Notes under the pieces: model-generated
The model's database searches: none
Told to the model about the DNA's origin: nothing
Seen by the model: the letters and a program-made list of their open reading frames with translations, nothing else
Assembly: GCA_016124585.1 (NCBI GenBank)
Contig: WGNL01000019.1
Coordinates: forward strand, 124,001-188,000
Length of the DNA: 64,000 nucleotides
From: Bacteroidota bacterium
Lineage (GTDB): Bacteria; Bacteroidota; Bacteroidia; Chitinophagales; Saprospiraceae
Reading direction: 5' to 3'
Shown here: piece by piece, positions 7,999-22,806 of the stretch
Layout: each line of letters opens with the position of its first letter
Numbering within the stretch: the first letter of the stretch is position 1
Position numbers and translations under genes: made by a program

Positions 7999-9441
7999 TC
8001 ATGCACTGACTTCCTTTTCCTTCTGCCTTTTCAGCATATTGGGACAAACATAATCTGTAGTGTCAAATTTTCCTGACAATTGTATTGCCTTGAATCCACC
8101 CTTAACATCTACGATGTTTTCAAAGCCACGGGACTTCAAAATCGAAGCCGCAATCATGGAGCGGTAGCCGCCAGCGCAATGCACGAAATATTTTTTCTGG
8201 CGGTCAAGGTCATTCATGTAGTCATTGATGAAATCTAATGGCACGCTCTCTGCATCCTTGATGTGTTCTGCGGCGAACTCACCGGGCTTTCTCACGTCCA
8301 AAACATGGTCAGGACTGTAGTTTTTCAATTCCTCTGCCAGCTCGTTTGCTTCGACAGAATTTAAACAATCAACTTCCATACCAGCATTTTTCCAAGCTTC
8401 AAAACCGCCTTCCAAATAACCTACGACGTTGTCAAAACCGACCCGGCTAAGTCGGGTAATTGCCTCTTCTTCCCTACCTGGTTCCACTATTAGCGCCAAC
8501 GGTGTATTCACATCCGCTACCAAGGCGCCCACCCAAGGAGCAAACTGACCACCAAGGCCAATAAAAATTGAATTCGGAATAAATCCTTTGTAAAAAACGC
8601 TTTCGTGGCGTACGTCCAGCATGAGCGCACCTGTGGCGTTCACTGCTTCCTCGAAAGCCCGTGGGGAAAGTGCCTGTGCACTGCGTTTCATCACCTCTTC
8701 AAAGCTGGCGTAACCTTCTTTGTTCAAGCGAACATTTTCAGGGAAGTATTTCGGTGGGGCCATTAGTCCATCTGTTACTTCGTGAACAAACTCCGCTTTG
8801 GTCATGTCAGACCGGAGTGCATAGTTGTTGGCCTTTTGTGCACCGATGGTAGAAACCGTTTCTTTCGACATGTTTTTGCCGCAAGCAGAACCCGCACCGT
8901 GCGCTGGGTAAACTGTCACATCATCTGGCAGGGTCATAATTTTATTCCGCAAGCTGTCGTAAAGATGGCCCGCCAAATCTGCCATTGTCAAATCAGATTT
9001 CTGTGCCAAATCTGGCCGCCCAACATCACCGATAAACAGCGTGTCGCCAGAGAAAATAGCAGTCTCTTTCCCGTTTTCATCCAAAAGCAAATAGCAGGTA
9101 CTTTCCATCGTATGGCCAGGCGTGTGCAGCACTTTGATGCTGATATTACCTACTTTCAAGATTTCGCCATCAGTAGCGATATGAGCCTTAAAACCTGTTT
9201 TCGCATTTGGGCCGTAAACGATTTCTGCGCCTGTGTTTTTTGCAAGGTCGAGGTGCCCGGAGACGAAGTCAGCATGGAAGTGGGTTTCCAGCACGTACTT
9301 GATTTTCGCATTGTCTTGAGCAGCACGCTCCATGTATGGTTTTACTTCCCGTAGCGGGTCAATTACCACAGCCTCGCCATTGCTTTCAATATAGTAGGCG
9401 CCTTGTGCAAGGCAGCCCGTATAAATCTGTTCGATTTTCAT
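7999..9441 (-). CDS. CstB-like persulfide dioxygenase-rhodanese fusion
   Basis: 480 residues from the ATG at 9441-9439; an in-frame start at 9492 would add 17 residues, but the inferred promoter ends right before 9441. Residues 1-240 are a metallo-beta-lactamase-fold, ETHE1-type persulfide dioxygenase: THFHADFVSGH (metal ligands His54, His56, Asp58), His110 in HTPGH, Asp133 in FSGDTLF and His181 in PAHG. Two rhodanese-homology domains follow (about 260-365 and 370-470). The first has lost its cysteine (IVEPGREEEA); the second keeps FVHCAGGYRS. This order, dioxygenase, dead rhodanese, live rhodanese, is that of staphylococcal CstB, which turns persulfides into thiosulfate. The upstream TGAT-N4-ATCA site suggests control by the neighbouring Crp/Fnr protein. 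Confidence 0.92.
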   Translation of the reverse strand: MKIEQIYTGCLAQGAYYIESNGEAVVIDPLREVKPYMERAAQDNAKIKYVLETHFHADFVSGHLDLAKNTGAEIVYGPNAKTGFKAHIATDGEILKVGNISIKVLHTPGHTMESTCYLLLDENGKETAIFSGDTLFIGDVGRPDLAQKSDLTMADLAGHLYDSLRNKIMTLPDDVTVYPAHGAGSACGKNMSKETVSTIGAQKANNYALRSDMTKAEFVHEVTDGLMAPPKYFPENVRLNKEGYASFEEVMKRSAQALSPRAFEEAVNATGALMLDVRHESVFYKGFIPNSIFIGLGGQFAPWVGALVADVNTPLALIVEPGREEEAITRLSRVGFDNVVGYLEGGFEAWKNAGMEVDCLNSVEANELAEELKNYSPDHVLDVRKPGEFAAEHIKDAESVPLDFINDYMNDLDRQKKYFVHCAGGYRSMIAASILKSRGFENIVDVKGGFKAIQLSGKFDTTDYVCPNMLKRQKEKEVSA

Positions 9442-9446
9442 GTTGA

Positions 9447-9477
9447 CCAATTTAATTTTTGTAAATAATGGAACAAA
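9447..9477 (-). promoter_or_regulatory. Promoter of the persulfide dioxygenase gene
   Basis: TTTG (9477-9474), 19 nt, then TAAATTGG (9454-9447), close to the Bacteroidota pattern TTTG-N19-TAnnTTTG. The start site would fall about at the ATG, giving a very short or absent leader. Confidence 0.55.
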
Positions 9478-9493
9478 GATGATAAAAATCATC
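9478..9493. promoter_or_regulatory. Crp/Fnr-type operator (TGAT-N4-ATCA)
   Basis: GATGATAAAAATCATC is a perfect dyad with an Fnr-type core. It abuts the -33 element of the dioxygenase promoter; its centre is about 42 nt before the inferred start site, the class II activator position. Similar sites lie at 11871-11884 and 22718-22731. Confidence 0.7.
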
Positions 9494-9558
9494 GCCGAGG
9501 TTCAGGTACTAAAGTCACAATGCCGCAATTTGTTTTTGAATGGTGAGGAGTTGACAGC

Positions 9559-10179
9559 TTATTTCAGCATCAACTCAATGCGGTTGCGATGGGTTTTGAT
9601 TTTGCCCAAACCTTCCAGTTTTTTCAAAAGCCGAGTAACCACCTCACGGGAAGTATTTAGTTCAGCAGATAAATCCTGATGAGTAGCATACACGTATCTT
9701 TTCTCTTGTAATCCAGCCTTTTTTCTCAGCAATCGCCAGAGGCGCTCATCCATTTTACGGAAAGCAAGGCTGTCCACTGCTTCCAGCATATCCTCAAACC
9801 GTCGCTGATAGGCTTGAAAAACGAAGGTCTTCCAAGATGGGTATAGGCTCATCCAGACGTCCAGTTTGTCAACTGGCACGAGCAGCATTTCGGTTGGTTC
9901 TTCAGCCACAGCACGAACGTTGCTGGGCTTGCTGGCGGAGCAACAAGTGAGCGACATGGCGCAGGTGTCTCCTTTTTGGAGAAAGTATAGGAAGGTCTCG
10001 TTTCCTTTTTCGTCCTGCCGCATGATTTTCAAACTGCCCGACAAAATGATGGGTATGCTCCTGATAAACATGCCGGGGCGCATCAACTCTTCGCCCACTT
10101 CCAATTTTTTCAGCGTGCCAGATTTTTCGATTTCTTCGACAAGCTTAGGTTCGAAATCGTGAAAAAGGTTAGGTTGCAT
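9559..10179 (-). CDS. Crp/Fnr-family transcriptional regulator
   Basis: 206 residues from the ATG at 10179; a longer reading from 10245 would overlap the preceding gene. An N-terminal cyclic-nucleotide-binding-like beta roll (about 20-105) leads through a long dimerisation helix to a winged HTH (about 160-200, HQDLSAELNTSREVVTRLL). Cys73 and the vicinal pair Cys79-Cys80 (TCAMSLTCC) are exposed candidates for thiol or persulfide sensing; there is no Fnr-type N-terminal iron-sulfur cysteine cluster. It is the last gene of the rhodanese/YeeE/YedE set and lies directly before the dioxygenase. Fnr-like palindromes stand at both promoters, so it probably controls them. The signal is inferred. Confidence 0.9.
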   Translation of the reverse strand: MQPNLFHDFEPKLVEEIEKSGTLKKLEVGEELMRPGMFIRSIPIILSGSLKIMRQDEKGNETFLYFLQKGDTCAMSLTCCSASKPSNVRAVAEEPTEMLLVPVDKLDVWMSLYPSWKTFVFQAYQRRFEDMLEAVDSLAFRKMDERLWRLLRKKAGLQEKRYVYATHQDLSAELNTSREVVTRLLKKLEGLGKIKTHRNRIELMLK

Positions 10180-10205
10180 GGTCTGTTGTTTCTGCGTGAA
10201 TGAAA

Positions 10206-10733
10206 TTAATTTGGCAGTTTGTCCCTGAATTTCCCATAAACCCAAGTACCTGCCACAGCACTCAGGATGGTGACAATAATAACGCTAACGCCACTTCCCA
10301 ATTGCGCCATCAAAGGCCCAGGGCAAGCGCCAGTGATAGCCCAGCCAAGTCCAAAAATCAAGCCGCCGATGACTTGGCCTTTCGTGAATTTTTTATCCTG
10401 AAATTCAATTTCCTCGCTGTGTATCGTCTTGATTTTCAGCTTTTTAATCAAGAAAATAGATATGGCCCCTACCACTACTGCCGTGCCGATGACACCGTAC
10501 ATGTGGAAAGATTCCAACCTGAACATTTCCTGAATCCTGAACCAAGAAATCACTTCGGATTTAATCAAAATGATTCCAAAGAAAATGCCAGCCACCATGT
10601 ATTTCAGGTTGTGATAAAATGGCACGTCCTTCTTGGAAACATTCACGCAGTGAGTATCCAAGGAGCGAACCTCGAAATCGGTATTTCTTGCATCAACGAT
10701 GGCGGATATTGCGCCTGAATTCATCTTGCTCAT
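10206..10733 (-). CDS. YedE/DUF6691 half-transporter for thiosulfate or sulfane sulfur
   Basis: 175 residues with about four membrane helices starting near residue 43 and the family motif GLGWAITGACPGP (one conserved Cys). YeeE/YedE proteins carry thiosulfate (TsuA), and split PmpA/PmpB-type pairs belong to sulfur-stress loci. Here the two halves are separate genes 9 nt apart. The N-terminal ~42 residues before the first helix are hydrophilic and may include a few non-native residues if a later start is used. Cotranscription with the second half, the rhodanese lipoprotein and the regulator is inferred from spacing. Confidence 0.87.
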   Translation of the reverse strand: MSKMNSGAISAIVDARNTDFEVRSLDTHCVNVSKKDVPFYHNLKYMVAGIFFGIILIKSEVISWFRIQEMFRLESFHMYGVIGTAVVVGAISIFLIKKLKIKTIHSEEIEFQDKKFTKGQVIGGLIFGLGWAITGACPGPLMAQLGSGVSVIIVTILSAVAGTWVYGKFRDKLPN

Positions 10734-10742
10734 TTCTGAATT

Positions 10743-11306
10743 TTATAATTTTAGTAAAAACGGCACAATCCAATTGGCCGAAATAAACCCACCCACCATG
10801 AAGCAAATCGTGGCAACCAGTGACGGCAATTGTAGATTCGAAAGGCCACTGATTGCATGGCCACTTGTACAGCCACCAGCATACCTAGTACCGAACCCAA
10901 CCAGAAAACCACCAACGACCATGAATATTAAACCCTTGATAGTCAGCAGGTTTTGCCAGTTAAAGAGTTGCGTAGGCACTTGCTCCGTGAAGTCATCAAT
11001 GCCGTTTTGAGCGAGATCAGAGACCAGTGCAGGAGCAACTTTCACCTGCTCAGGGTCGTGCAGGTAGGTAGCTGCCAAGAAGCCTCCGATGATGATGCCA
11101 GCAGCAAAAAACAGGTTCCAGACTTCCTTCTTCCAATCGTATTTGAAAAAAGAAATATTGCCGGGGAAGCATGCTGCACAGACATGGCGCAAATTGGCCG
11201 AAATGCCAAAATGTTTGTTGCCCATAATCAGGAGCAAAGGCACTATCAGGCCAATCAACACCCCTGCCAATGACCAGTGCCACGGTTGTTTAATTAAATC
11301 CAACAT
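10743..11306 (-). CDS. YeeE half-transporter for thiosulfate or sulfane sulfur
   Basis: 187 residues with four to five membrane helices. The signature GFGTRYAGGCTSGHAISGLS carries the conserved Cys thought to relay sulfur through the membrane in the TsuA family. It pairs with the YedE half downstream. The upstream neighbour, 60 nt away, is a rhodanese lipoprotein that could deliver or accept sulfane sulfur on the periplasmic side. An extra CAAC motif near residue 44 (HVCAACFPG) is a further candidate thiol site. Direction of transport cannot be told from sequence. Confidence 0.88.
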   Translation of the reverse strand: MLDLIKQPWHWSLAGVLIGLIVPLLLIMGNKHFGISANLRHVCAACFPGNISFFKYDWKKEVWNLFFAAGIIIGGFLAATYLHDPEQVKVAPALVSDLAQNGIDDFTEQVPTQLFNWQNLLTIKGLIFMVVGGFLVGFGTRYAGGCTSGHAISGLSNLQLPSLVATICFMVGGFISANWIVPFLLKL

Positions 11307-11366
11307 GTGAATGAAAAAGTTTAAAACTCAGTCTATTTGGTATAGATGGCTATGTAGGGCGGGTCA

Positions 11367-11741
11367 CTATTTTTCACGCCAAGCGGTATACCCCCCTTTC
11401 AAACTGTACAGGTTTTTAAATCCTTTATTTGCCATGATGTCGCAAGCTTCACTGCTGCGTCCACCACTTTTACAATAAACTAGATAAGTTTTTTCTTTGT
11501 CCAATTTATCCACTTGCGTTTCAAAATTGTCGGCTTCGTAATCAATCTCAATGGCTCCGTCAATCATCCCCTCAGCCGTCTCTGCTGGGGTTCGAACGTC
11601 CAAAATCACCGTGTTAGGTTCCGCCATTTTGGCTTTGAAACCAGCTAAGTCCAAATCAGCATAGCCCTTCGAATTTGAATCCGAGGAACAAGCTGAAAAA
11701 GTCACAAACGCAAAAAAAAGGAGGTAAAAAAAATGCTTCAT
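11367..11741 (-). CDS. Rhodanese-domain lipoprotein
   Basis: 124 residues. The signal peptide ends in a lipobox (VTFSAC, lipid-carrying Cys18), so the protein is membrane-anchored outside the cytoplasm. One rhodanese domain follows: ILDVRTPAETAEGMIDGA and the active loop YLVYCKSGGRS with its catalytic cysteine. It is the first gene of the YeeE/YedE/Crp set. An Fnr-type palindrome centred 136 nt upstream and a -7-like GACCTTTG at 11848-11841 form its probable promoter. Likely role: handling sulfane sulfur in the periplasm next to the transporter. Confidence 0.9.
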   Translation of the reverse strand: MKHFFYLLFFAFVTFSACSSDSNSKGYADLDLAGFKAKMAEPNTVILDVRTPAETAEGMIDGAIEIDYEADNFETQVDKLDKEKTYLVYCKSGGRSSEACDIMANKGFKNLYSLKGGYTAWREK

Positions 11742-11840
11742 GTCAAATTTTCTTTTCAGAACACTGCACCATCATTTTGGTTGAGCGCCTTTTTTTAAAT
11801 CAAACATTAGCATGATGCCCTTCCTTGACTTTTGCTGGCA

Positions 11841-11848
11841 CAAAGGTC
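11841..11848 (-). promoter_or_regulatory. Candidate -7 box of the rhodanese/YeeE operon
   Basis: GACCTTTG keeps five of the six fixed bases of TAnnTTTG. Its last base is 36.5 nt from the centre of the palindrome at 11871-11884, the same spacing as at the sigma-factor promoter. Confidence 0.45.
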
Positions 11849-11870
11849 ACATGATTTCCCAAATTAACCT

Positions 11871-11884
11871 GTGATGTTTATCAC
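11871..11884. promoter_or_regulatory. Crp/Fnr-type operator (GTGAT-N4-ATCAC)
   Basis: GTGATGTTTATCAC is a perfect dyad between the end of the efflux adaptor gene and the rhodanese lipoprotein gene. It is identical outside the N4 spacer to the site at 22718-22731. Confidence 0.7.
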
Positions 11885-11896
11885 GGATGTCCAATG

Positions 11897-13090
11897 TCAT
11901 TCCTCAGCCGCCACTCCTGCCCCTTGCGCCGACACGTAGTACGCTCCTTTCAATACTATTTTTGCCCCTTCGGGCAATGCATCCTTAGGCGACACCGCCA
12001 CGTACCCATCGGCTTCGCCACCTTTTTCCACTTTTATTTTTTTGAAAAAACTGCCTTCAGCACTTTCTTTTTCAAGGGTAAAAATGAAATACTCCTCTCC
12101 CTCCTGTACCACGGCTGCCTCAGGCAAAGCATTGCCTTCGCCCAATCCACTCGTCGCAATTTTTGCTTCTAGGTACCCACCATCCACGAAGTTGGCCTGA
12201 CCAGCCACACTGCCCTCTAACCTCGCATGTGCCCGCACAGCACGCTTGTCTGGGTCGAGCACCTTGTCCATGCTGTAAATCACCGCTGGGTAGGTTTTGG
12301 ATGGGTTGGCGGGAAATGCGAGCTGTACCCGCTGCCCCGTTTTTACTTTCGAAATGTCTTTTTCGAACACCCAAAGGTCGGCGTGCAGTTGGCTAAGGTC
12401 GGTCACTTCGCAGACAATCGTACCCGGTTGCACCGCTGCGCCCACATTGGTTTCGATGGAAGTAACGAGGCCGTTCACGGGTGAAGTAAGCACAAGTTCC
12501 GTGCTCAGGTTCGCCGCCGTCAGCTTGTCGGGATTTATTTGGTACTGGCGCAATTTGGCCGCAAGCAATTGCCCCGTCGTTTTCGCTGCCCGCAGGTCTG
12601 CCTCCGCTTTCAAGAAGTTTTTCGAAGCAGTGGCATCCGCATCTTTCAGCGATTTGTAGCGGTCAAATTCGGCTTGCAGGAATTGTAACTGGTCTTTGTT
12701 TTCCAAAAACTGCTGCTGCATGTCCAGCAAGTCCGGCTTGCGCACCGTGGCCAGTATTTGCCCCTTTCGAACGCTGGCATTCAGCGTGGTGCGGAGACTA
12801 GAGAGAATGCCATCAGAGAAGGCCGTCACATCCGCCGTGTGTTCCGTGTGTACAACCAGTTCAGCGTTGACTGACAAGGTTTCTGAGATGTTTTTCTTCG
12901 TAAAGCTGGTATAGGAAATATTAGCCAACTTCACTTGCTCAGGGGAAAGCATCGCAAGCCCATCCACAGCTTGCGGTGGGGTGTAGGTGTGGTCGTGGTT
13001 ATGGTCAGCACCATCTTCGTGGCTATGGTTGGAATCGCCACATGACCAAAACATACCTAAAAGCAAAAGGAAAAGAAATGTATTTTTCAT
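11897..13090 (-). CDS. RND efflux periplasmic adaptor (CzcB/CusB type), lipoprotein
   Basis: 397 residues. The lipobox FWSC (Cys17) is followed by a His-rich tail (SNHSHEDGADHNHDH) suited to metal binding. The body has the membrane-fusion plan: barrel-sandwich halves (VTAFSDGILSSLRTTLNASV and LVLTSPVNGLVTSIETNVG) around a coiled-coil hairpin (about 135-185), then beta-barrel and C-terminal domains. It should bridge the inner-membrane pump and the TolC protein encoded upstream (gap 67 nt). It is the last gene of the efflux set. Metal specificity is taken from the pump. Confidence 0.92.
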   Translation of the reverse strand: MKNTFLFLLLLGMFWSCGDSNHSHEDGADHNHDHTYTPPQAVDGLAMLSPEQVKLANISYTSFTKKNISETLSVNAELVVHTEHTADVTAFSDGILSSLRTTLNASVRKGQILATVRKPDLLDMQQQFLENKDQLQFLQAEFDRYKSLKDADATASKNFLKAEADLRAAKTTGQLLAAKLRQYQINPDKLTAANLSTELVLTSPVNGLVTSIETNVGAAVQPGTIVCEVTDLSQLHADLWVFEKDISKVKTGQRVQLAFPANPSKTYPAVIYSMDKVLDPDKRAVRAHARLEGSVAGQANFVDGGYLEAKIATSGLGEGNALPEAAVVQEGEEYFIFTLEKESAEGSFFKKIKVEKGGEADGYVAVSPKDALPEGAKIVLKGAYYVSAQGAGVAAEE

Positions 13091-13116
13091 TATAAATAAT
13101 TGATAATTAGATGTTT

Positions 13117-13149
13117 AACGTCGGCGAGGTTTTGAACCTCGCCGACGTT
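13117..13149. repeat. REP-like palindrome, family A copy 1
   Basis: AACGTCGGCGAGGTT, TTG, AACCTCGCCGACGTT: a 15-bp perfect stem with a 3-nt loop between the TolC and adaptor genes. It matches the copy at 51260-51292 in 13 of 15 arm positions with the same geometry. No U-run follows on the transcribed strand. Confidence 0.85.
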
Positions 13150-13157
13150 TGATTAAC

Positions 13158-14351
13158 TCACTGCCCCGTCAGCGCCTCCAGTTCGATGACCGTCTGGTTC
13201 AGCCCCAGCAGGTTCTCCAAATGCTGCAATTCGATGCCCGCCGCTTGCTCCAGCAACTGCACGAAATCGGCATAGCTCAGTTCGCCCTGTGTGTAGTTCA
13301 GTTCACCCGTTCGCAGCAGTTCAGACGCCAGCAACTTGCCTTCATTGGCGTAGTAGTCTAGTAAAATCAGGTATTTTTCTTGTTCGTGGAGGAGGTGGCC
13401 CAGTTCGTTCCGCTGCACCAGCATCGTCGAGCGAAGCTCCGCATCTGCCGCCGCAATGCCGATTTCCGCCGCTTCCGATTGCGCTTTCAGCGATTTTTTG
13501 AAAATCGGCACGTTCAGTCCCAACTGCCAGCCGGGGTAGAGGTCGCCGTTGCCGAGGTACTGCCCGTACACGCCTGCCGAAGCCGTTGGGGCAAATTTTG
13601 CCTTCGTCAATTCCTGCTCCGAACGAGCCACTTCGACGAGACTTTTGCTGTACTTTGCCATGGCTGAGGTGCGCAAAAGCGTCGTGTCTGCGATAGAAAA
13701 CTCGCCCTCGTGCAGCCGCTCTACCACGGGTTGCACGGCCTCGCCAAGCCCCAGCATTTGCCCCAAAACAATGCGGTCGAACTCGATTTCGTGGTAAACC
13801 GTGCGGGCATCCAACCGGATTTGAGCGGCTTTGTCCTGCGCCGCCAGCTTCTCCGCCAGCGACACATCGCCTGCCCGGTAGCGCATATCCGCTGACTTTG
13901 CCACCCGCTGATAGACGCTGTCGAGGCGGTTGTACAGCGCCGACTTGCCATCAAGGTAGCTGAGGTGGTGGTAAATGTCCCGCACCTGCCGGATGATGTC
14001 CTGCCGGGTCAGACCCTGCCGAGCTTCAGCCTGCGATTGAAGGCTGGCATGGAAATCACGGGTGGCACGGGTCATTTTTCTCGAAGGAAAATTTTGGTTC
14101 ACGCCAACGGTCGTCGTACCGAAGACGCCTAGGTCTGGATCGGCGGTCACGTTGTGGAAAAGTTGCGAATGCTCCCAAGGTGCACCCGCCCCTTTCAGCA
14201 CCTCCTGCTGGCGGATTTGGTGGCTGGCCGCCTCCATCGCCGGGTGGTTCTTGAGCGCCATTTCGATGGCTTGCTGCTCAGTGAGGGAGGTTTGGGAGAA
14301 AATGGTTTTTGCTCCACAACCTATGATTACTAAAAAGATTATTTTTTTCAT
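13158..14351 (-). CDS. TolC-family outer-membrane efflux protein (CzcC type)
   Basis: 397 residues with a signal peptide (about 1-19) and two outer-membrane-efflux-protein repeats rich in long amphipathic helices (about 25-190 and 210-395). Contains LTEQQAIEMALKNHPAM near the N-terminus, the usual opening of the family. It should form the outer-membrane exit duct of the RND system encoded around it. The upstream gene is the pump and the downstream one the adaptor. A long palindrome (14392-14490) separates it from the pump and may modulate relative expression. Confidence 0.93.
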   Translation of the reverse strand: MKKIIFLVIIGCGAKTIFSQTSLTEQQAIEMALKNHPAMEAASHQIRQQEVLKGAGAPWEHSQLFHNVTADPDLGVFGTTTVGVNQNFPSRKMTRATRDFHASLQSQAEARQGLTRQDIIRQVRDIYHHLSYLDGKSALYNRLDSVYQRVAKSADMRYRAGDVSLAEKLAAQDKAAQIRLDARTVYHEIEFDRIVLGQMLGLGEAVQPVVERLHEGEFSIADTTLLRTSAMAKYSKSLVEVARSEQELTKAKFAPTASAGVYGQYLGNGDLYPGWQLGLNVPIFKKSLKAQSEAAEIGIAAADAELRSTMLVQRNELGHLLHEQEKYLILLDYYANEGKLLASELLRTGELNYTQGELSYADFVQLLEQAAGIELQHLENLLGLNQTVIELEALTGQ

Positions 14352-14391
14352 AAAAGACTGAATATCAGTTTTTTAAAATTTAGGGTGCGTA

Positions 14392-14490
14392 AGGAGGATG
14401 GTAACACGGATTGGGCGGATTTAGCGGATTAGAATGGATTTTCATCTGTGTAAATCAGTCCAATCAGTCTAATCCGTGTACCATCCTCCT
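14392..14490. repeat. Long imperfect palindrome built of GGATT words
   Basis: AGGAGGATGGT and ACACGGATT in the left arm pair with AATCCGTGT and ACCATCCTCCT in the right arm with one bulged base. Pairing continues inward with scattered mismatches through words of about 9 nt (GGATTGGGC, GGATTTAGC, GGATTAGAAT against AATCAGTCC, AATCAGTCT), leaving a loop of about 20 nt. It lies between the pump gene's stop and the TolC gene's start. Confidence 0.85.
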
Positions 14491-14501
14491 CGCGGGCTAA
14501 G

Positions 14502-17500
14502 TCAATTTTTTCTCCTAAAAAACATCGCATACAGCACTGGCAACACCACCAGTGTCAGCAGCGTGGAAGTCACCAAACCACCAATTACCACCGTCGCCAG
14601 TGGCCGCTGCACCTCGGCCCCTGCCCCGTGCGAAATCGCCATCGGGAGGAAGCCGAGCGAAGCCACCGCTGCCGTCATCAGCACAGGGCGAAGGCGCACC
14701 AGCGCCCCCCGAATGATGCGCTCGTGGACGTTGCTCATCCCCTCTTCTTCCAGTTGTTTGAAATAGGAAATCAGCACGATGCCATTCAGCACGGCCACGC
14801 CGAACAAGGCGATGAAACCGACACCTGCCGAGATACTGAACGGCATGTCCCGCAGCAGCAGCGCAAACACTCCACCGACCGCCGACATGGGGATGGCAGT
14901 GAAGATTAACGTGCTCTCTTTCAAGGAGTTAAAAGTGAAGTACAGCAGCCCAAAAATGAGCAGTAGCGCCACAGGAACGGCGATGCTGAGCCTTGCCTTG
15001 GCCGCTTTCAGGTTCTCGAATTGCCCACCAAACGTGTAGTAGTAGCCGCTCGGCAATTTCAGTTTTTTACTCAAAACAGCCTGCACGTCGGTGATGGCGC
15101 TCTCCACATCCCGGCCCCTAACATTGGCGCTGACCACGATGCGGCGACGTCCATCGTCCCGGCTAATTTGCGCAGCACCAGCACGGTAGTCCACGTCGGC
15201 AACTTCACTAAGCGGGATGAGTTGTCCGGTCGGCGTAGCGATGGGCAATTGGCGCACGTCCTCAATGTCGGCACGGTGGTCGGCGGCGAGGCGCACGACG
15301 AGGTCGAAGCGGCGCTCGTCCTCGAAAATGGCCCCGGCAGCCGTGCCTGCGAAAGCGGTGCGCAATGCCTCGTTCACGTCCTTTACGTGCAGTCCGTAGC
15401 GGGCAATTTTGTTGTAGTCATAGCGGGCAACAATCTGCGGGAGACCCTCTATTTGTTCGACTTTTAAGTCGGCCAAACCTTGCACATCCTTGATGATATT
15501 TTCCACCCGACGTCCCGCACGGGCCAAGCTGTCGAGGTTGTCACCAAAGATTTTCACGGCAATATCGGAGCGTACCCCGGTCATCATTTCATCGAAACGC
15601 ATCTTGATGGGCTGCGTGAATTCGAAAGCCATGCCGGGCACTTCATAGACTTTTTCCTCAATCATCCCGACGAGTTCCTCCTTCGTCTCCGCCTTTTTCC
15701 AGCCCTCCATCGGCTTCAGGAGAATGATGTTGTCGGCAGTTTCGGGGGCCATCGGGTCGGTCGGAATTTCCGCAGAACCGATCTTCGAAATGACCTGCTC
15801 CACCTCGTCGGGGAAGTTTTCCATGATGATTTTTTGCGCCAGCCGATGGCTCTCTAGCGTCTGCGTGAGCGAGGTGCCGGGCTTGCAGAAGCCGTGCATC
15901 ATGATGTCGCCCTCGTCGAGCGTGGGGATGAACTCGCCGCCCATTCGGGAGAAAAGGAAAACGGCCAGAGCGAAACCCATAACGGTGAGGCCGAGCACCG
16001 TTTTTTTCCATTGCAAAGCGAGGTTAAGCGCTGGCAGATACATTTTTTGAAAAAAGCCAACAATGCGGTCGGCGAAGGTTTTTTCCGCCTTCAGTTTTTT
16101 ACTCAAAAAGGCGGCGCTCATGGCAGGCACGTAGGTCAAAGAGAGCAGCAGGGCACCTACGAGTGCAAAGCTCACGGTCTGTGCCATCGGCTTGAACATC
16201 TTGCCCTCGACGCCCGTCAGCGAGAGTATCGGCAGGTAAACGATGAGGATGATGATGACGCCGAAAACGCTGGAGCGCATGATTTTGGAGGAGGAAAAGC
16301 GAACGGCCTCGTTCATGTTATCTTGCGAAAGTTGTATGGTCGCATAGCTGCCGTCTTCCTGTTTTCGCTGATGAAACACTTTTTCATGCAAGAAATGCAG
16401 CGTCGCTTCCACGATAATCACCGCCCCGTCCACTATCAACCCGAAATCAATCGCACCGAGCGACATGAGGTTGGCGCTGACGCCCGTGAGCTGCATCATG
16501 CCGAGCGCAAACAGCATCGAAAGTGGAATGACCGAGGCGATGAGCAGCCCCGCCCGGAAGTTCCCGACGAGCAGCACGAGAATGAAAATAACGATGAGCG
16601 CCCCTTCGATGAGGTTTTTTTGGACAGTGGCGATGGTACGGTTCACCAGTTTTTCCCTATCCAAAAACGTGGTGATGGTGATCCCTTCCGGCAACGACGA
16701 CTGTATTTGCGCTACCCGCTCCTTCACCCGCTGGATGACATTGGCGGCGTTTTCGCCCTTGAGCATCATCACGATGCCGAGCACGATTTCGCCCTCGCCA
16801 TTGTGGCTGACTGCTCCGTAGCGCATGGCGCTTCCGATTTGCACATCGCCAATGTCGCCGATTTTCACGGGGGTGCCGCCCTCGGTTTTCACCACGATTT
16901 GACGGATGTCGTCAAGCGATTTGGCCAAACCCTCGCTGCGGATGAAGTAAGCGTTGGCGTTCTTCTCAATATAAGCGCCGCCGGTGTTTTCGTTGGCGTT
17001 TTCAAGCGCTGTGAAGACCTCACCGATGCCGATGCCGAAGGCTTTCAGGCGAGCGGGCGTGACGGCCACTTCGTATTGCTTGAGGTAGCCGCCGAAACTG
17101 TTGATTTCGACCACGCCGGGGATGCCCATCAGTTGGCGCTTCACAATCCAGTCCTGGATGCTGCGCAATTCGGTGGGTGAGTAGCGGTCTTCGTAGCCCG
17201 GTTTTGGCTCGATGCGGTAATGCAGAATTTCACCTAAACCCGTGGAAACAGGCGCCAATTCTGGTGTGCCGAAGCCAGCGGGGATTTGCTCCTCCGCCAT
17301 TTTCAGCTTTTCGTTCACGAGCTGCCGAATGAGATATTTATCAATATCCTCTTCGAAAACGACCGTGACCACGCTCAGCCCGAAACGGCTGATGCTCCGC
17401 AATTCGATGACACCGGGGATGCTCCGCACGGCATTTTCGATGGGATAGGTGACGAACTGTTCGACCTCCGGCGTCGCCAAAGTCGGGCAGACGGTGAGCA

Positions 17501-17645
17501 CCTGCGCCTGATTGTTAGTGATGTCAGGGATAGCGTCGATGGGCAGCCGGGTAAATGACCAAACGCCCCAAGCGACTAGCGCCAAGGTGCCGAGTGCGAC
17601 GATGGCTTTGTTTTTTATAGAAAAAGAAATGATGCTATTGAGCAT
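14502..17645 (-). CDS. czcA: Heavy-metal efflux RND pump, CzcA-like
   Basis: 1047 residues, full length for the HME-RND family, with twelve membrane helices in two halves and two large periplasmic loops. The fourth-helix motif reads DFGLIVDGAVIIVEA. DFGxxVDGxxVxxE is the signature of the Co/Zn/Cd (CzcA) branch, while the Cu/Ag (CusA) branch has AIGxMVDA, so divalent cations are the probable substrates. The usual N of VEN is replaced by A. GGEFIPTLDEGDIMMHGF opens the second periplasmic region. It works with the TolC and adaptor proteins encoded downstream. The 428-residue reading frame on the opposite strand is a shadow. Confidence 0.93.
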   Translation of the reverse strand: MLNSIISFSIKNKAIVALGTLALVAWGVWSFTRLPIDAIPDITNNQAQVLTVCPTLATPEVEQFVTYPIENAVRSIPGVIELRSISRFGLSVVTVVFEEDIDKYLIRQLVNEKLKMAEEQIPAGFGTPELAPVSTGLGEILHYRIEPKPGYEDRYSPTELRSIQDWIVKRQLMGIPGVVEINSFGGYLKQYEVAVTPARLKAFGIGIGEVFTALENANENTGGAYIEKNANAYFIRSEGLAKSLDDIRQIVVKTEGGTPVKIGDIGDVQIGSAMRYGAVSHNGEGEIVLGIVMMLKGENAANVIQRVKERVAQIQSSLPEGITITTFLDREKLVNRTIATVQKNLIEGALIVIFILVLLVGNFRAGLLIASVIPLSMLFALGMMQLTGVSANLMSLGAIDFGLIVDGAVIIVEATLHFLHEKVFHQRKQEDGSYATIQLSQDNMNEAVRFSSSKIMRSSVFGVIIILIVYLPILSLTGVEGKMFKPMAQTVSFALVGALLLSLTYVPAMSAAFLSKKLKAEKTFADRIVGFFQKMYLPALNLALQWKKTVLGLTVMGFALAVFLFSRMGGEFIPTLDEGDIMMHGFCKPGTSLTQTLESHRLAQKIIMENFPDEVEQVISKIGSAEIPTDPMAPETADNIILLKPMEGWKKAETKEELVGMIEEKVYEVPGMAFEFTQPIKMRFDEMMTGVRSDIAVKIFGDNLDSLARAGRRVENIIKDVQGLADLKVEQIEGLPQIVARYDYNKIARYGLHVKDVNEALRTAFAGTAAGAIFEDERRFDLVVRLAADHRADIEDVRQLPIATPTGQLIPLSEVADVDYRAGAAQISRDDGRRRIVVSANVRGRDVESAITDVQAVLSKKLKLPSGYYYTFGGQFENLKAAKARLSIAVPVALLLIFGLLYFTFNSLKESTLIFTAIPMSAVGGVFALLLRDMPFSISAGVGFIALFGVAVLNGIVLISYFKQLEEEGMSNVHERIIRGALVRLRPVLMTAAVASLGFLPMAISHGAGAEVQRPLATVVIGGLVTSTLLTLVVLPVLYAMFFRRKN

Positions 17646-17805
17646 GATTGAAATGCGGATTTCGGATTAGGTTCCCTACGGGAATGACAATTGCAGATTG
17701 GTGGCCGGAAGTCGGCAAGGGAAAGGACTTTCTACAACGAAATGGGATTACGCAAACCAGTTAACGCTTTGAACTAAGTTCAAAATGTCAAACAAAGCGG
17801 TGATA

Positions 17806-17838
17806 ATCCGCAATCCGCAATCGAAAATCCGAGATTAG
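17806..17838. repeat. Stuttering spacer words (AATCCGC)
   Basis: AATCCGCAATCCGCAATCGAAAATCCGAGATTAG: a 7-nt word repeated with decay between the small His-rich gene and the pump. It is one of many such spacers in this window. Confidence 0.6.
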
Positions 17839-18230
17839 ACAGCTCGTGGTGGCTGCCAGATGTCGCTGGGAAGGGAAAAACTGTAGGATTGGTCCTGAAA
17901 AACAGGAAGGCTGGCCTCGCCGATGGAAGGCAGGGCTGGCGAAAAATTTGGCAGGTTTTGAAAGGCCACCAAAGTAGGTAAATGGAGGTGGTCGCAATGC
18001 CCCTTGCCGGGGAGTTTAGAGTGGTCGTGGTCGGTTTGGTGTTTCGCAAAACCTTCTCCGTAGTGCATTTTCCAGAATTGGAAAAATGAGATGCCGGGCG
18101 TTTCCGCTTGATGCTCTTTGAAATGTTCGAGCAGACTAGGCAGTTTCGCTAATTCCTCCTTAGTCTGAGCAGGCACGAGGGCGCCGAACAGGAACAAAAC
18201 AAGCAGGAATTTTGCGAATGCGTTTTTCAT
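17835..18230 (-). CDS. Small exported His-containing protein of the metal-efflux locus
   Basis: 131 residues. A signal peptide (1-22, ending PAQTKEE) is followed by a region with a cluster of possible metal ligands (KHQTDHDHSKLPG and HCDHLHLP). No domain is recognised. It lies 190 nt upstream of the pump on the same strand and probably belongs to the efflux operon, as a periplasmic metal-binding accessory; this is inference from composition and context. Confidence 0.7.
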   Translation of the reverse strand: MKNAFAKFLLVLFLFGALVPAQTKEELAKLPSLLEHFKEHQAETPGISFFQFWKMHYGEGFAKHQTDHDHSKLPGKGHCDHLHLPTLVAFQNLPNFSPALPSIGEASLPVFQDQSYSFSLPSDIWQPPRAV

Positions 18231-18264
18231 TGCGGCAGCAAAGATATTAAAATTGGAATTTTTA

Positions 18265-19017
18265 TCAATTGTTTGGCGCTCCGTCTTCTATCCAGATGCG
18301 GACGACATCAATTTCGCATTGGGGCATTTTGGCGCTACCAGCCGGGTACGGCATCGGAATGTAGGCGCTTTCGTGGTTAATGGTGCCGAGTAGTTCACCG
18401 TTCAATGCCACGATTTTTGCCTCGTCGTAATTGGTCAATTTGATGCCACCACTAGGGTTGGTTGTGCCGTGGCAACCCTTGCATTTCAAGTCAAGCAGGG
18501 GTTTCACGGAGCCAGAATACGTCACGTTAGTCGTGTCGCAGCCGCTTTCGCAAGTCAGGTTTTGAGCGCCTTGTTGAATCCATTTCAGGATGACCGCTTT
18601 CTGGTCGGCAGTGAGCGCTGAATATGGAGATGGCGGCATTCTATCGCCTCCTGAAGCATTGAGGGATTTGTAGATTTTGCTGTTGGTGGGGCTGTTAAGG
18701 TTAATCCCACCTGTGGCCTTTACTTTATCAAAGCTGGTCAAAATTACGCCTTCCTTGTGGGACTGCACATCGTGGCAGCCGGAGAGGGCACAGTTGGAAG
18801 CCAGTATCGGCAACACTTGCGCCCCGAAATATACCGAATCGGGGTCGCAGGGATGCTCGTTGACGTAAACGGGCGTCGTATCCACTATCCCTGTCGAATC
18901 CACTGGGCCAGTAGGCAGCTCGCCGACGAAGACGGGTTCCCTTTTGCAAGAAAACAAGATGGAGAAAAACAGGATAGTGCCTGCCATGACGGCAGCGATG
19001 GACTGAATACGCTTCAT
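18265..19017 (-). CDS. Lipoprotein with two c-type heme motifs
   Basis: 250 residues. Lipobox LFSC (Cys24). Two tandem cytochrome-like modules: the first has an expanded heme motif CALSGCH (CX4CH, Cys76-His82) with MPPSPY further on; the second has a standard CKGCH with PMPYPAGSAKMP. Each module ends in the pattern WIxxGAxN, seen in the two related proteins here. It should be a periplasmic or surface diheme electron carrier. It follows a DUF5777 barrel gene by 41 nt and is the last gene of the sigma-factor operon. The electron partner is unknown. Confidence 0.85.
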   Translation of the reverse strand: MKRIQSIAAVMAGTILFFSILFSCKREPVFVGELPTGPVDSTGIVDTTPVYVNEHPCDPDSVYFGAQVLPILASNCALSGCHDVQSHKEGVILTSFDKVKATGGINLNSPTNSKIYKSLNASGGDRMPPSPYSALTADQKAVILKWIQQGAQNLTCESGCDTTNVTYSGSVKPLLDLKCKGCHGTTNPSGGIKLTNYDEAKIVALNGELLGTINHESAYIPMPYPAGSAKMPQCEIDVVRIWIEDGAPNN

Positions 19018-19058
19018 GATTTAGCTGAATTTACCTTAGAAAAATACTGAATGCTCAA

Positions 19059-19958
19059 TTATACATTCTTTTTTATCTGAAAAATCCGGGAGAGGTTGAA
19101 CCCAAATCGGATTTCGCCTTTCCGCCAGTTGCTATTGTCATCGCTGAGGTAGGCCCGCTCGTTCATGCCCACGGCATTTGAAAAATGAAGTTGGAAAACG
19201 TGGCCGCCCGTTTCGATGTCCACGCCCAGCGATAGTGGGTTGTGGCTCAAGTTGGCCGGAAAACGGTTGATGACGTAGCCGTAATCCCAGACGAGGGCCA
19301 TGCGCTGCGTGACTTTGTAACGACCGCCGAAGCCCACTGCCCAAAGGTCGTTTGGCACCAGTTCGTTCTGGACGATGTTGCGGTGGACGAGCGTCGGCGT
19401 GAGCTGCAAAGTGAAGCGCTCGCTGAATTTTCTGCCAATGATGGCCTCGTAGTAGTAGCCCATCCGACGGGCGAAGGTGGCTGGCACTTCCGCATTTCCG
19501 ACAGGGTCTTTCAGGCCGTTCATCGTTGCGCCAGCGACCAAAACCAAGGAAATGGGCATGTTCCGCTTGCCCGTGGACTGCCAGAGCAGGCGGTATTTTG
19601 CGAAGGCATCCAATTCTTTTTTGGAAGTACTGCGGCCGATGCCGACCATCAGATTTTTTGTCAATCCAAAATCAAATCCCATCCGCATGCTGGCTTGGTC
19701 TAGGCCAAAAAACTCGTAGTAGCCCCTGCTCACATCGCCGAAGCGGTGCAAGATGCGGAAGTCCATCGTGCCGGGGTGGAGCATTTCCATGCTGTGGCCG
19801 TTGATGACCCGTGGGCTTTTGAAGGCATTGGTGGCGTATTCGGTGGTCTGCTCATCGCCGAGGGCATCGAGCATACTGGGTTCATCTTGGGCAGACGCCA
19901 GATTTGCCGTGAGGCAAAATATTGCGAATACAATTAATTGATTTATAAGCTTTTGCAT
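19059..19958 (-). CDS. DUF5777-family outer-membrane beta-barrel
   Basis: 299 residues with a signal peptide (1-23, ASAQDE). Alternating amphipathic strands carry the family pattern: TMDFRILHRFGDV, LDQASMRMGFDFGLT, MVGIGRST, FAKYRLL and a closing FGFNLSRIFQ. The function of DUF5777 is not established. It is flanked on both sides by c-type cytochrome lipoprotein genes (gaps of 18 and 41 nt), and a second barrel/cytochrome pair lies at 23545-24869. A barrel that houses or exposes a cytochrome is an attractive inference. Confidence 0.85.
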   Translation of the reverse strand: MQKLINQLIVFAIFCLTANLASAQDEPSMLDALGDEQTTEYATNAFKSPRVINGHSMEMLHPGTMDFRILHRFGDVSRGYYEFFGLDQASMRMGFDFGLTKNLMVGIGRSTSKKELDAFAKYRLLWQSTGKRNMPISLVLVAGATMNGLKDPVGNAEVPATFARRMGYYYEAIIGRKFSERFTLQLTPTLVHRNIVQNELVPNDLWAVGFGGRYKVTQRMALVWDYGYVINRFPANLSHNPLSLGVDIETGGHVFQLHFSNAVGMNERAYLSDDNSNWRKGEIRFGFNLSRIFQIKKNV

Positions 19959-19976
19959 GATAATTCTTCTTGTTGG

Positions 19977-20642
19977 TTAATCGTTTTTGGCGCCGAGCGC
20001 AATCCATTTTTCGATTTTGGCAATATTGCAATCCGAGAGTTTGCTGCCACTTTCCGGCATGGCCACGTAGCCGGAGGAATGCTTCACGGAGCCGAGCAAA
20101 GTGCCGTCATTCACAGTAGCTTTTATGCCAGTGTAATTGGTAAGGTTGATATTGCCTTGTGGCTGGCTGCCGCTGTGGCAGCCGTTGCAGTAATTATCAA
20201 AAATGGGCATGACCGAGCCAGACAGGGTCACACTGGTCGTATCACAGGCGGCCACTTGGCAACTGTTGTTTTGAGCACCTTGTTTTATCCACAGCGCAAT
20301 GGTGGTGATTTTTTCATCGCTCAAGCGATCGTAGGGCGAAGGTGGCATGATTCCGAAAGAAGTGGTGATGATTTTGTAAACCTTGCTCGCCTTGTAATCT
20401 CCTGGCTTTACCGATTTCAAGATTCCGTCGTAGTTGCTGAAATCATAGCCAGCCTCCCGAGTCTGGGAATTATGGCAACCGCTTTGCGTACAGCTTGATT
20501 GGAAAATGGGCAGCACCTCCTGTTGGAAGCAAACCTCCTGTCTGTTCTCAATGTACTCTTTCTTACAGGCACTGGCGAACATGACTGCCGCAAGCGCCAG
20601 TGCGCCTAACCAGGCGAGTGTCCTTCTTTTTGATACATTCAT
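19977..20642 (-). CDS. Lipoprotein with two c-type heme motifs (paralogue)
   Basis: 221 residues, lipobox ASAC. Same plan as the protein at 18265-19017: CTQSGCH (CX4CH), then MPPSPYDRLS and WIKQGAQN, then CNGCH and WIALGAKN at the end. Both motifs should bind heme c if the expanded motif is accepted by the maturation system. It is placed between the anti-sigma-like gene and a DUF5777 barrel. The two cytochromes bracket the barrel gene and look like an ancient duplication. Confidence 0.85.
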   Translation of the reverse strand: MNVSKRRTLAWLGALALAAVMFASACKKEYIENRQEVCFQQEVLPIFQSSCTQSGCHNSQTREAGYDFSNYDGILKSVKPGDYKASKVYKIITTSFGIMPPSPYDRLSDEKITTIALWIKQGAQNNSCQVAACDTTSVTLSGSVMPIFDNYCNGCHSGSQPQGNINLTNYTGIKATVNDGTLLGSVKHSSGYVAMPESGSKLSDCNIAKIEKWIALGAKND

Positions 20643-20748
20643 TCTTTAAAAATTTAATGGATGCCCGCCATGTCAGCGGGTTAACTTTTGATATTTCGGG
20701 TAAAAAACCAAGCAGGTTGCCTTGTTCATTTTTTGTTGGAAAGTTTTT

Positions 20749-22044
20749 TTAAAAACGGTAGCCTAGGCCCAGTCGCCAAGTTGCCCAACGCCTGATTCCC
20801 ACTTGGTTTCCTGTTTTGAAATCCCAAGCGCCGCTGGCCAAAGCCTGCCAATGGTTGCCCATTTCATAACGCAAACCGAGGTCAAAACCTGTATAATTCA
20901 AGGGCTTACTAGTGGATGGAACTCCTACTTCCCTACTTTTTTCCATGCCATTCAGGCGGTTCACGTATTCCACCTCAAGTTCGTACCCGGGGTTCCACTG
21001 CGCCGACCAAGCCGCGCCTAGCCAAGGGCTTATTTTGTTTTTTGCTAAAAAATAATAGCGCATACCCAACCCAAGTTGAAAGATTTGCCTTGAATCGTCG
21101 TGCGTTTCGAAATACTTGAAATCGTATTCATCGCCGGGCGACTGAAAATCGGGGAAGCCGAGGTTTGGGTCTTTGACGTAGCCACGGAAGCTCATATTAG
21201 TGAAGCTACCGCTCAGTGTCATTGAAAGGTTTTGGGAGAATCCAATTTCACCTAAAAGTCCAACTGCGAATCCGCTGCTGTTCGCAATTGCTGATTCAAT
21301 TGGCTTGAAACCACCCATTTCGGTGCTGAGGGCAAACGAGCGGGGAATGAGTGGGAACGCAGTCTTTTCCTCCTTGGCAGGTTTCATCGGCAGGACATCG
21401 GTGGCGGGCAAAATCGGTCGTTTTCCCCAAGGGAACGGCTCAATTTCCAAGCAGGCGAGGGCGTCCAAATTGGCTTGCCGGGCTGCGTTTTTATCGAGTT
21501 TCTCCTTTTCAGTTTCAGTTAAATCACCCGTTGCTCCAGTGTACTCCGCAGGTTCGTTAGGGTCAAAATTGGTAGCTAGCCCATCTGTTGGAGCCGTGTT
21601 TTGAGCAGTTTTTGAAAAAGTATTTTTGGTTGAAAAGGAAGGTTTGGAAACGTTTTCCAAAGCCCAATTCTTCGGAGAATTTGCTTGCGTAAACTGTTTA
21701 ATCACTACAGTTCTATAAATCGTATCGTATTGATAGACAATGTGTTTTGAGTAAATTGTGTCCTGCATGGTAACGGTTTGCGGTGTTTCATTTGCTTGCG
21801 CAAAATTTGGCTGGTTAGTCACTTCACTTGATTTTTTCCAAGCAAAAAACCACCCCAGATTGGACAGCAGCAACAGCCCAGTCAACCCAGCCAGCCAGCC
21901 GATGGGCAGCACCCGCCAGCGCTTCCGCTCGTGCGCATCGAGGCGGGCAGAGAGCGAACCCCAGTCCGCCCCACTGAAATCCGGCGGCGGAGAAGCTCCT
22001 TGCATTTTTTCAGAAAACCGCTTAAAAAAGTCCGGCTGTTTCAT
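20749..22044 (-). CDS. Anti-sigma-like protein with a C-terminal barrel-type domain
   Basis: 431 residues, start overlapping the sigma-factor stop by 4 nt. The N-terminus (1-43) is short, charged and cytoplasmic in character (FKRFSEKMQGASPPPDFSGADW). One membrane helix follows (about 48-70, GWLAGLTGLLLLSNLGWFF), then a Pro/Thr-rich stretch. Residues about 230-431 have the alternating pattern of outer-membrane barrels and end in GLGYRF with a terminal Phe. Position and N-terminus suggest an anti-sigma factor; the C-terminus suggests a porin-like domain. That combination is odd and its topology cannot be settled from sequence. Confidence 0.7.
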   Translation of the reverse strand: MKQPDFFKRFSEKMQGASPPPDFSGADWGSLSARLDAHERKRWRVLPIGWLAGLTGLLLLSNLGWFFAWKKSSEVTNQPNFAQANETPQTVTMQDTIYSKHIVYQYDTIYRTVVIKQFTQANSPKNWALENVSKPSFSTKNTFSKTAQNTAPTDGLATNFDPNEPAEYTGATGDLTETEKEKLDKNAARQANLDALACLEIEPFPWGKRPILPATDVLPMKPAKEEKTAFPLIPRSFALSTEMGGFKPIESAIANSSGFAVGLLGEIGFSQNLSMTLSGSFTNMSFRGYVKDPNLGFPDFQSPGDEYDFKYFETHDDSRQIFQLGLGMRYYFLAKNKISPWLGAAWSAQWNPGYELEVEYVNRLNGMEKSREVGVPSTSKPLNYTGFDLGLRYEMGNHWQALASGAWDFKTGNQVGIRRWATWRLGLGYRF

Positions 22045-22598
22045 GCGTTTTTGATTTTAGGTGCTGGTAGTTCCATCATTTCCTTGAGCTTTGCCCGGGC
22101 CTTGAACAAATTCGATTTGGATGTGCCCACCGAAATGCCCAACATTTGAGCAATCTCCTGATGTTCGTAACCTTCGATGGCATACATATTGATGGCTAGG
22201 CGGTAGGACGGTGGCAATTGCTGGACGTGCGCCAGCAGTTCATCCGAAGAAAGTTGCTCCAGTACATCAAAGCCATCGTCGGCGGCCTGTTCTGCTACTT
22301 CTAAATCGTCGAGTGGCAAGCTGCTGCGCTGGTATTTCCGATAGTGGTCAATGGCGCTGAATACGACGACTTTGCGCAGCCAAGCCTGGAAAGGCAGCGC
22401 TGAGTCGTAGTTTTCGATTTTGGTAAAAACCCTGAAAAATGCGTCGTTGACGACCTCCCTGCCTTCATCCAAGGTGGCCACGTAGCGCCTACCCACCGAC
22501 AGTGCAAAACTGTAGTACAGCTCGTACAGCGCATGTTGCGACACCCGCTCCCGGCGTCGGCAACCTTCGATGATTCGGTCCAGTCTCGTGTTATTCAT
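22041..22598 (-). CDS. ECF-type RNA polymerase sigma factor
   Basis: 185 residues. Region 2 (about 25-95) contains DEGREVVNDAFFRVFTKIENYD and WLRKVVVFSAIDHYRK; region 4 (about 125-175) contains LPPSYRLAINMYAIEGYEHQEIAQMLG, the -35-recognition HTH. It is the first gene of a probable operon continuing through the anti-sigma-like protein, two cytochromes and a DUF5777 barrel. The promoter has a consensus -7 box and an Fnr-type palindrome at the activator position, so an external regulator likely sets sigma-factor levels. Confidence 0.92.
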   Translation of the reverse strand: MNNTRLDRIIEGCRRRERVSQHALYELYYSFALSVGRRYVATLDEGREVVNDAFFRVFTKIENYDSALPFQAWLRKVVVFSAIDHYRKYQRSSLPLDDLEVAEQAADDGFDVLEQLSSDELLAHVQQLPPSYRLAINMYAIEGYEHQEIAQMLGISVGTSKSNLFKARAKLKEMMELPAPKIKNA

Positions 22599-22687
22599 GC
22601 CGGCTACTTATTCTTTTCGGAGAAAGAAAGCAAGGGGTTGCCTGTGGTTTGAAAAAATTTCACAGTGCGGTTATAGTAGAGTTGAAT

Positions 22688-22695
22688 CAAAATTA
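22688..22695 (-). promoter_or_regulatory. Promoter -7 box of the sigma-factor operon
   Basis: TAATTTTG on the minus strand matches TAnnTTTG exactly. No TTTG is present at -33, as expected for an activator-dependent promoter. The palindrome at 22718-22731 is centred 36.5 nt from its last base. Confidence 0.6.
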
Positions 22696-22717
22696 TGCCC
22701 ACTGTTTCGGGCTGGAA

Positions 22718-22731
22718 GTGATAATCATCAC
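22718..22731. promoter_or_regulatory. Crp/Fnr-type operator (GTGAT-N4-ATCAC)
   Basis: GTGATAATCATCAC is a perfect dyad. It is centred about 41 nt before the start site implied by the TAATTTTG box. Confidence 0.7.
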
Positions 22732-22787: not shown

Positions 22788-22806
22788 ACTTGCTTCAAAC
22801 GCTATC

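Follow-up and report, generated by a model that had tools for sequence, protein, structure and literature searches.

Three inverted repeats stand upstream of sulfur genes and of a cytochrome operon in a 64,000-nucleotide (nt) stretch from a Bacteroidota bacterium of the Saprospiraceae (contig WGNL01000019.1 of assembly GCA_016124585.1, positions 124,001 to 188,000 of the forward strand), a stretch that we call the window throughout; which protein would read them, and do they belong to one regulon? A first-pass annotation had described them as Fnr-type dyads at the activator position of three promoters and had proposed a shared regulon under the Crp/Fnr protein encoded in the sulfur locus. From the window, its genome and 100 genomes of the family, we consider it likely that this 206-residue protein is a class II activator of genes for the handling of sulfide and sulfane sulfur, with GTGAT-N4-ATCAC as its operator, sites 2 and 3 being canonical and site 1 weak or degenerate. 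The sites and their promoter boxes are the following:

9478..9493, minus strand: site 1, dyad GATGAT-N4-ATCATC, GATGATAAAAATCATC, upstream of the persulfide dioxygenase-like gene
9447..9454, minus strand: site 1 box TAAATTGG, a weak match to TAnnTTTG
11871..11884, minus strand: site 2, dyad GTGATGTTTATCAC, operator GTGATAAACATCAC, of the rhodanese-YeeE-YeeE-Crp operon
11841..11848, minus strand: site 2 box GACCTTTG, which keeps only the TTTG half of TAnnTTTG
22718..22731, minus strand: site 3, dyad GTGATAATCATCAC, operator GTGATGATTATCAC, upstream of the extracytoplasmic function (ECF) sigma operon
22688..22695, minus strand: site 3 box TAATTTTG, a full TAnnTTTG

All three dyads lie at the coordinates first reported for them, and the distances from dyad centre to box end (38.5 nt at site 1, 36.5 nt at sites 2 and 3) hold when counted on the sequence. 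Their presentation as three equivalent elements is right for sites 2 and 3, which are perfect GTGAT-N4-ATCAC palindromes with a TTTG ending 30 nt downstream of each dyad, and wrong for site 1, the weakest of the three, which has A, not G, before TGA and a TTGG 2 nt beyond the spacing of the other two, with the start codon 5 nt after the box. The description of the boxes as TAnnTTTG-like is likewise accurate in full at site 3 and only in part elsewhere. In a congener (G061), the matching gap between the Crp gene and the gene for the metallo-beta-lactamase (MBL)-fold/rhodanese protein holds GTGATGAAAATCATC, without TTTG at spacing 26 and at a distance from the start that differs from that of site 1. 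The Fnr label itself has to be given up, as sites 2 and 3 have the Crp-type G before TGA, where an Fnr site has T. In the genome scan that had been suggested, for the dyad followed by TAnnTTTG, TGATN4ATCA with a full TAnnTTTG 20 to 28 nt further on occurs once, at site 3. We rejected the full box as a requirement; it is too strict, since its only match in the genome is site 3 and relatives often keep only TTTG.

The short pattern TGATN4ATCA is only mildly enriched in the window, with five occurrences against 1.12 or 1.22 expected (five were reached in 3 of 300 shuffles), and it occurs 143 times over the whole genome. The longer GTGATN4ATCAC is found twice, at sites 2 and 3, against 0.05 expected (two were reached in 1 of 300 shuffles), and GTGAN6TCAC-N26-TTTG picks out the same two sites against 0.017 expected, a count that none of the 300 shuffles reached. 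Sites 2 and 3 make up half of the four copies of GTGATN4ATCAC in the 6.63-Mb genome, the other two (C14:85858 and C15:93880) lying inside long reading frames (L021, L024).

The candidate regulator is encoded between sites 1 and 2, among these genes:

7999..9441, minus strand: MBL-fold/rhodanese protein, persulfide dioxygenase-like (Pfam Lactamase_B and two Rhodanese stretches; putative activity)
9559..10179, minus strand: Crp/Fnr-family regulator, 206 residues, helix TSREVVTR, motif C73-x5-C79-C80 (Pfam cNMP_binding and HTH_Crp_2)
10206..10733, minus strand: YeeE/YedE-type sulfur transport protein (DUF6691/Sulf_transp)
10743..11306, minus strand: YeeE/YedE-type sulfur transport protein (Sulf_transp)
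11367..11741, minus strand: rhodanese lipoprotein-like gene, the first after site 2 (Pfam Rhodanese; lipoprotein reading by eye)

The protein belongs to the Crp/Fnr superfamily by its domain scores (PF00027, 40.8 bits against a cut-off of 27.5; PF13545, 34.9 bits against 27) and by its predicted fold (mean predicted local distance difference test, pLDDT, 83.6; predicted template modelling score, pTM, 0.60), for which the PDB matches listed are CRP, NtcA, FNR and relatives, 4ev0 being the best. We detected it in 75 of the 100 family genomes (E<=1e-40), often beside MBL-rhodanese and YeeE genes. Its first cysteine is C73, with none among the first 70 residues. Across the 62 proteins compared, C73 is invariant, C79 and C80 are each present in 61, and the C-x5-CC motif is intact in 61. 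Such conservation is permissive for sulfur sensing, and C73, C79 and C80 may act as reactive-sulfur sensors; residues 76-78 of the predicted model have pLDDT values below 50, and the structure search was uninformative on the cysteines. The recognition helix is of the Ser-Arg-Glu type in 41 loci and of the Ser-Arg-Val type in 20, classes from which the paralogue row L093_7650 was left out.

Around the orthologues of this protein, the motif of sites 2 and 3 is concentrated in the gaps between genes. The 60 loci used for density counts contain GTGA-N6-TCAC at 334 per Mb between genes (28 cases) versus 17 per Mb in genes (12 cases), and the intergenic controls give 12 per Mb for the reversed motif and 0-12 per Mb for spacings of 4, 5, 7 and 8. 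TTGA-N6-TCAA is little enriched (83 per Mb between genes, 51 in genes), which, with the GTGAT arms of sites 2 and 3, disposes of an Fnr reading of the dyads. A prior-free enumeration of all 5-mer dyads placed GTGAT-N4-ATCAC at the top in the Arg-Glu loci (15 of 41). The distance to the promoter box is also fixed: from the dyad, TTTG ends exactly 30 nt further on in 25 of the 33 site-orientations of the Arg-Glu loci and in 6 of the 15 of the Arg-Val loci. A separate scan of 80 named Crp-centred loci, which come mostly from Saprospiraceae with one from Fulvivirga and overlap the family genomes, and are thus not an independent set, gave a dyad-TTTG spacing of 26 in 72 cases, of 27 in 10 and of any other value from 5 to 45 in 0-5. 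In these named loci, motif and spacing mark MBL-rhodanese, SulP, YeeE and rhodanese promoters of Saprospiraceae: 32 of the 78 intergenic matches bear the MBL-rhodanese label and 11 bear none, the label denoting the best match within our own query set and including single rhodanese domains and some genes more than 1 kb downstream. The same dyad and spacing thus occur at sulfur-gene promoters in relatives and at sites 2 and 3, in agreement with the shared regulon proposed at the outset. A passage on Flavobacterium locates the TAnnTTTG box between -12 and -5 (PMC9723704); by this measure the dyad would be centred at -41.5, as in class II promoters. The class II geometry, a dyad at about -41.5 beside a TAnnTTTG-type box, follows from the spacing and the published box position, with predicted starts; the original placement near -41 fits sites 2 and 3 exactly, as it fits the family-wide spacing, and site 1 deviates from it.

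Helix residue and operator go together. In the Arg-Val loci the top dyad is GTAAC-N4-GTTAC (10 of 20 loci; with another gene mask, 9 of 20 versus 0 of 41 Arg-Glu loci). For whole-genome counts we defined a composite site, GTGA-N6-TCAC-N26/27-TTTG, and used the reversed motif as control. On average, a genome holds 6.63 such sites in the 41 Arg-Glu genomes (control 1.05), 1.00 in the 20 Arg-Val genomes (control 1.20) and 1.00 in the 25 genomes without detected regulator (control 0.64), the last class meaning no match at E<=1e-40, with more distant paralogues not searched for. Fourteen genomes in which the regulator locus was either not retrieved or left unclassified were kept apart; their mean is 4.07 (control 1.64), from totals of 57 and 23. 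Counts of the corresponding GTAAC-N4-GTTAC composite add up to 34 over all Arg-Val genomes (control 7); the Arg-Glu genomes together have 9 (control 20), the genomes without detected regulator 1 (control 14) and the unclassified genomes 3 (control 2), with means of 1.70, 0.22 and 0.04 for the Arg-Val, Arg-Glu and regulator-free classes. Motif, fixed spacing, co-occurrence with the regulator and dependence on its recognition-helix residue can thus all be read from the sequences themselves, and the tracking of site counts with the presence and helix residue of the 206-residue protein supports its earlier designation as the likely regulator. A passage of Rodionov et al. (2005, PMC1274295) states that, in the Crp/Fnr superfamily, two bases of the operator covary with residues 180 and 181, and that HcpR2, without Glu-181, has the site GTAACnnnnGTTAC; the pairing of helix and operator that we see corresponds to this published rule, as far as that passage states it.

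The promoters of the MBL-rhodanese genes point the same way. Seventy-five of them were evaluated after removal of those that were not fetched, cut, below 50% identity or with less than 120 nt upstream. A GTGA dyad lies within 350 nt upstream of the gene in 19 of 36 promoters from Arg-Glu genomes (in 17 of these 19, TTTG follows at the expected distance), in 1 of 13 from Arg-Val genomes, in 0 of 19 from genomes without detected regulator and in 3 of 7 from unclassified ones. A GTAA dyad is found at 4 of the 13 Arg-Val promoters and at 1 of the 36 Arg-Glu promoters. A second MBL gene, present in the window's genome and in the congener, has the GTGA motif with TTTG in both.

We propose that a dimer of the regulator would bind GTGAT-N4-ATCAC (core GTGA-N6-TCAC), centred about 41.5 bp upstream of the start and beside a sigma-A box often reduced to TTTG, and would switch on the genes of MBL-rhodanese proteins, rhodaneses, YeeE/YedE transporters and the SulP permease. 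Binding of the predicted sites and activation from them are suggested by position, covariation and target genes. With Escherichia coli CRP, the window protein shares the fold, the Crp-type helix-turn-helix, an Arg-Glu-x-x-x-Arg helix, TGTGA-type half-sites six bases apart and the class II position, but it scores only 45.1 bits on the NCBIfam CRP equivalog, whose cut-off is 266. By an alignment made by eye, its C-x5-CC motif falls in what would be the region of the cyclic AMP pocket of CRP. FNR has an N-terminal cysteine cluster for its Fe-S centre; this cluster is absent from the window protein, which shares with FNR the superfamily and the TGA-N6-TCA core of the site, whereas its arms are GTGAT (or have A before TGA at site 1), not TTGAT-N4-ATCAA. 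The Arg-Val relatives have the GTAAC-N4-GTTAC operator in common with HcpR2, as given in a passage of PMC1274295, but HcpR2 has Pro at the Glu-181 position. The same operator fits the NtcA site, reported in part of PMC3898017 as GTAN8TAC at about -41.5, and the NtcA helix also reads Arg-Val in our alignment, yet the window protein reaches 31 bits against an NtcA cut-off of 244.95. The sulfur genes that are its predicted targets set the family of the window's regulator apart from both NtcA and HcpR2. CstR, SqrR/BigR and FisR, which part of PMC9774590 describes as CsoR-, ArsR- and Fis-type sulfide-stress regulators, have in common with the window protein conserved cysteines and the control, predicted in our case, of sulfide or persulfide oxidation genes; the window protein differs in being a Crp/Fnr protein with its own C-x5-CC, and its sulfur sensing is putative. 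Among the top-ranked open-licence papers we found none on a Crp/Fnr protein that regulates persulfide dioxygenase genes in Bacteroidota, which is no proof of absence.

Which genes would this regulon contain? With spacings of 25-27, the composite has 12 matches in the window's genome versus 1 for the control. Eight were read as intergenic, two of which (L114, L117) overlap short frames judged spurious, and four inside long frames (L118, L120, L122, L124) were left out. The eight precede the site 2 operon, a rhodanese followed by a 1-Cys peroxiredoxin, the second MBL-rhodanese, a thioredoxin (on C23), a YgaP-like membrane protein, a DUF983 protein, an acetyl-CoA synthetase-like protein and the site 3 operon; sulfur or thiol genes lie downstream of five of them. 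The regulator of the thioredoxin promoter is ambiguous, because another Crp-type gene, encoding a fusion of response-regulator, cNMP and Crp helix-turn-helix domains (G000:C23:27666-30431), lies about 2.5 kb away. Targets in relatives include SulP, a type III SQR-like protein, YeeE, a CDO-family protein, TauE and cytochrome bd subunit I, with SQR, thioredoxin, peroxiredoxin, TauE and cytochrome bd each a target in single genomes. Two kinds of protein seem to have been carried across the helix switch, since they stand under both site types. DUF983, a small protein with a CPxC zinc-ribbon-like character, follows GTAAC sites in three genomes, two of them Arg-Val and the third unclassified (L342, L326 and L327; Pfam match for one of the three) and a GTGA site at L123. 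The other is a protein of 80 residues (80-90 across the loci) without Pfam match and with a shared APFxPEPHLxGKxRW stretch, which lies downstream of GTGA sites in the congener and in two of the named loci, and downstream of a GTAAC site in a single Arg-Val genome (L278:980-1246, L288, L356 and L331; likeness judged by eye).

A further candidate member is the operon behind site 3, which comprises the following genes:

22041..22598, minus strand: ECF sigma factor, first gene after site 3 (Pfam)
20749..22044, minus strand: follows the ECF gene, unmatched in Pfam and NCBIfam; tentatively anti-sigma, going by its position
19977..20642, minus strand: c-type cytochrome-like protein with two heme-type motifs (Cytochrome_CBB3, PSCyt1)
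19059..19958, minus strand: DUF5777 beta-barrel protein (Pfam)
18265..19017, minus strand: second cytochrome-like protein (PSCyt1)

Site 3 is a near-perfect operator, and the ECF gene is the next feature downstream on its strand. For its conservation, we searched the cytochrome-like protein in the 100 family genomes, found a match at E<=1e-15 in 42 and inspected 20 larger stretches. The sole stretch that keeps the ECF gene, the next gene, the cytochrome, YceI and DUF5777 in order (L216, from G031) holds a GTGA-N6-TCAC or GTAA-N6-TTAC dyad nowhere and no TGA-N6-TCA within 600 nt upstream of the ECF gene, which tells against the cytochrome link; the composite site occurs in 0 of the 20 stretches. 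The extension of the regulon to the cytochrome/barrel operon, part of the initial proposal, thus retains its operator in this genome and loses it in the syntenic relative, and site 3 suggests membership of the operon only weakly, from this one genome. The region directly upstream (22807-24923, minus strand) nearly repeats part of the site 3 operon: it encodes YceI, another DUF5777 barrel and a small cytochrome-like protein, and a terminator-like hairpin follows the YceI gene at about 22757-22789.

Several other observations speak against activation of these promoters by the window's regulator. The tree accounts for the helix switch with one or two changes, which means that the covariation does not represent many independent events; G094 carries a GTGA site at its MBL gene despite its Arg-Val helix; and the GTAAC composite occurs in 8 of the 41 Arg-Glu genomes, in two of them (G086 and G013) at MBL genes. 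Moreover, 17 of the 36 Arg-Glu MBL promoters are without the GTGA dyad, among them that of the window's own MBL gene, with only the degenerate site 1, and that of its congener orthologue. Finally, a paralogue in the same genome, at C10:174319, also has an Arg-Glu helix (TAREVVSR), with C73 but no CC pair.

The alternative that fares best, although we judge it unlikely, is that the regulator is mainly a repressor, or a sensor of redox state or nitric oxide rather than of sulfur, the sulfur genes being one part of a wider stress response. Single-genome targets such as cytochrome bd, a methionine sulfoxide reductase pair (L363) and peroxiredoxin would suit it, as would the use of GTAAC-N4-GTTAC by HcpR2, linked to nitrogen oxides in a passage of PMC1274295; however, the dyad stands at a fixed activator position upstream of the box without overlapping it, and both the neighbours and the commonest labelled targets are sulfur genes. 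That another Crp/Fnr protein, for instance the C10:174319 paralogue, binds the sites alone or jointly with the window's regulator is less probable still: composite sites across the family track the presence and helix type of the orthologue of the latter and cluster at adjoining genes. Seven proteins of the genome pass the HTH_Crp_2 cut-off, and in one relative (L093) a similar Arg-Glu paralogue adjoins the orthologue, but the remaining five helices are, by eye, of the Arg-Gln, Lys-Glu or Arg-Val type. Least credible is a set of three unrelated chance palindromes, to which the many genomic copies and modest window excess of TGATN4ATCA, the poor fit of site 1 to the family operator and spacing and the lack of site 3 in the single syntenic relative lend something, but which the shuffles of the composite site and the family-wide motif and spacing refute for site 2; site 1 may be a chance palindrome.

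Beyond activation of sulfur genes by the 206-residue protein, we tentatively entertain a wider picture, which we regard as somewhat more likely to fail than to hold in its entirety: an unnamed class of C-x5-CC Crp/Fnr activators may sense sulfane sulfur directly through those cysteines and govern sulfide detoxification in the Saprospiraceae, a change from Glu to Val in the recognition helix having gone with a regulon-wide rewriting of GTGAT to GTAAC, and the window's species may have recruited the ECF/cytochrome/barrel operon. A Crp/Fnr protein for sulfide stress would give this large, mostly uncultured family a readable sulfur regulon and would point to unknown proteins such as DUF983 and the 80-residue, membrane-like protein. 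It would also offer a natural example of a single recognition-helix residue that varies together with the operator on the scale of whole genomes, and consensus and spacing would permit direct target prediction in other genomes.

Two further palindromes of the window deserve mention. A TTGAT-N4-ATCAC dyad at 30870-30883 lies 57 nt upstream of an AhpC/TSA-type peroxiredoxin gene (30940-31395, plus strand), without TTTG at the spacing of the regulon. The fifth TGATN4ATCA of the window, at 45859-45870, is TTGAT-N4-ATCAA, a true Fnr-type palindrome, and stands between genes away from the sulfur locus.

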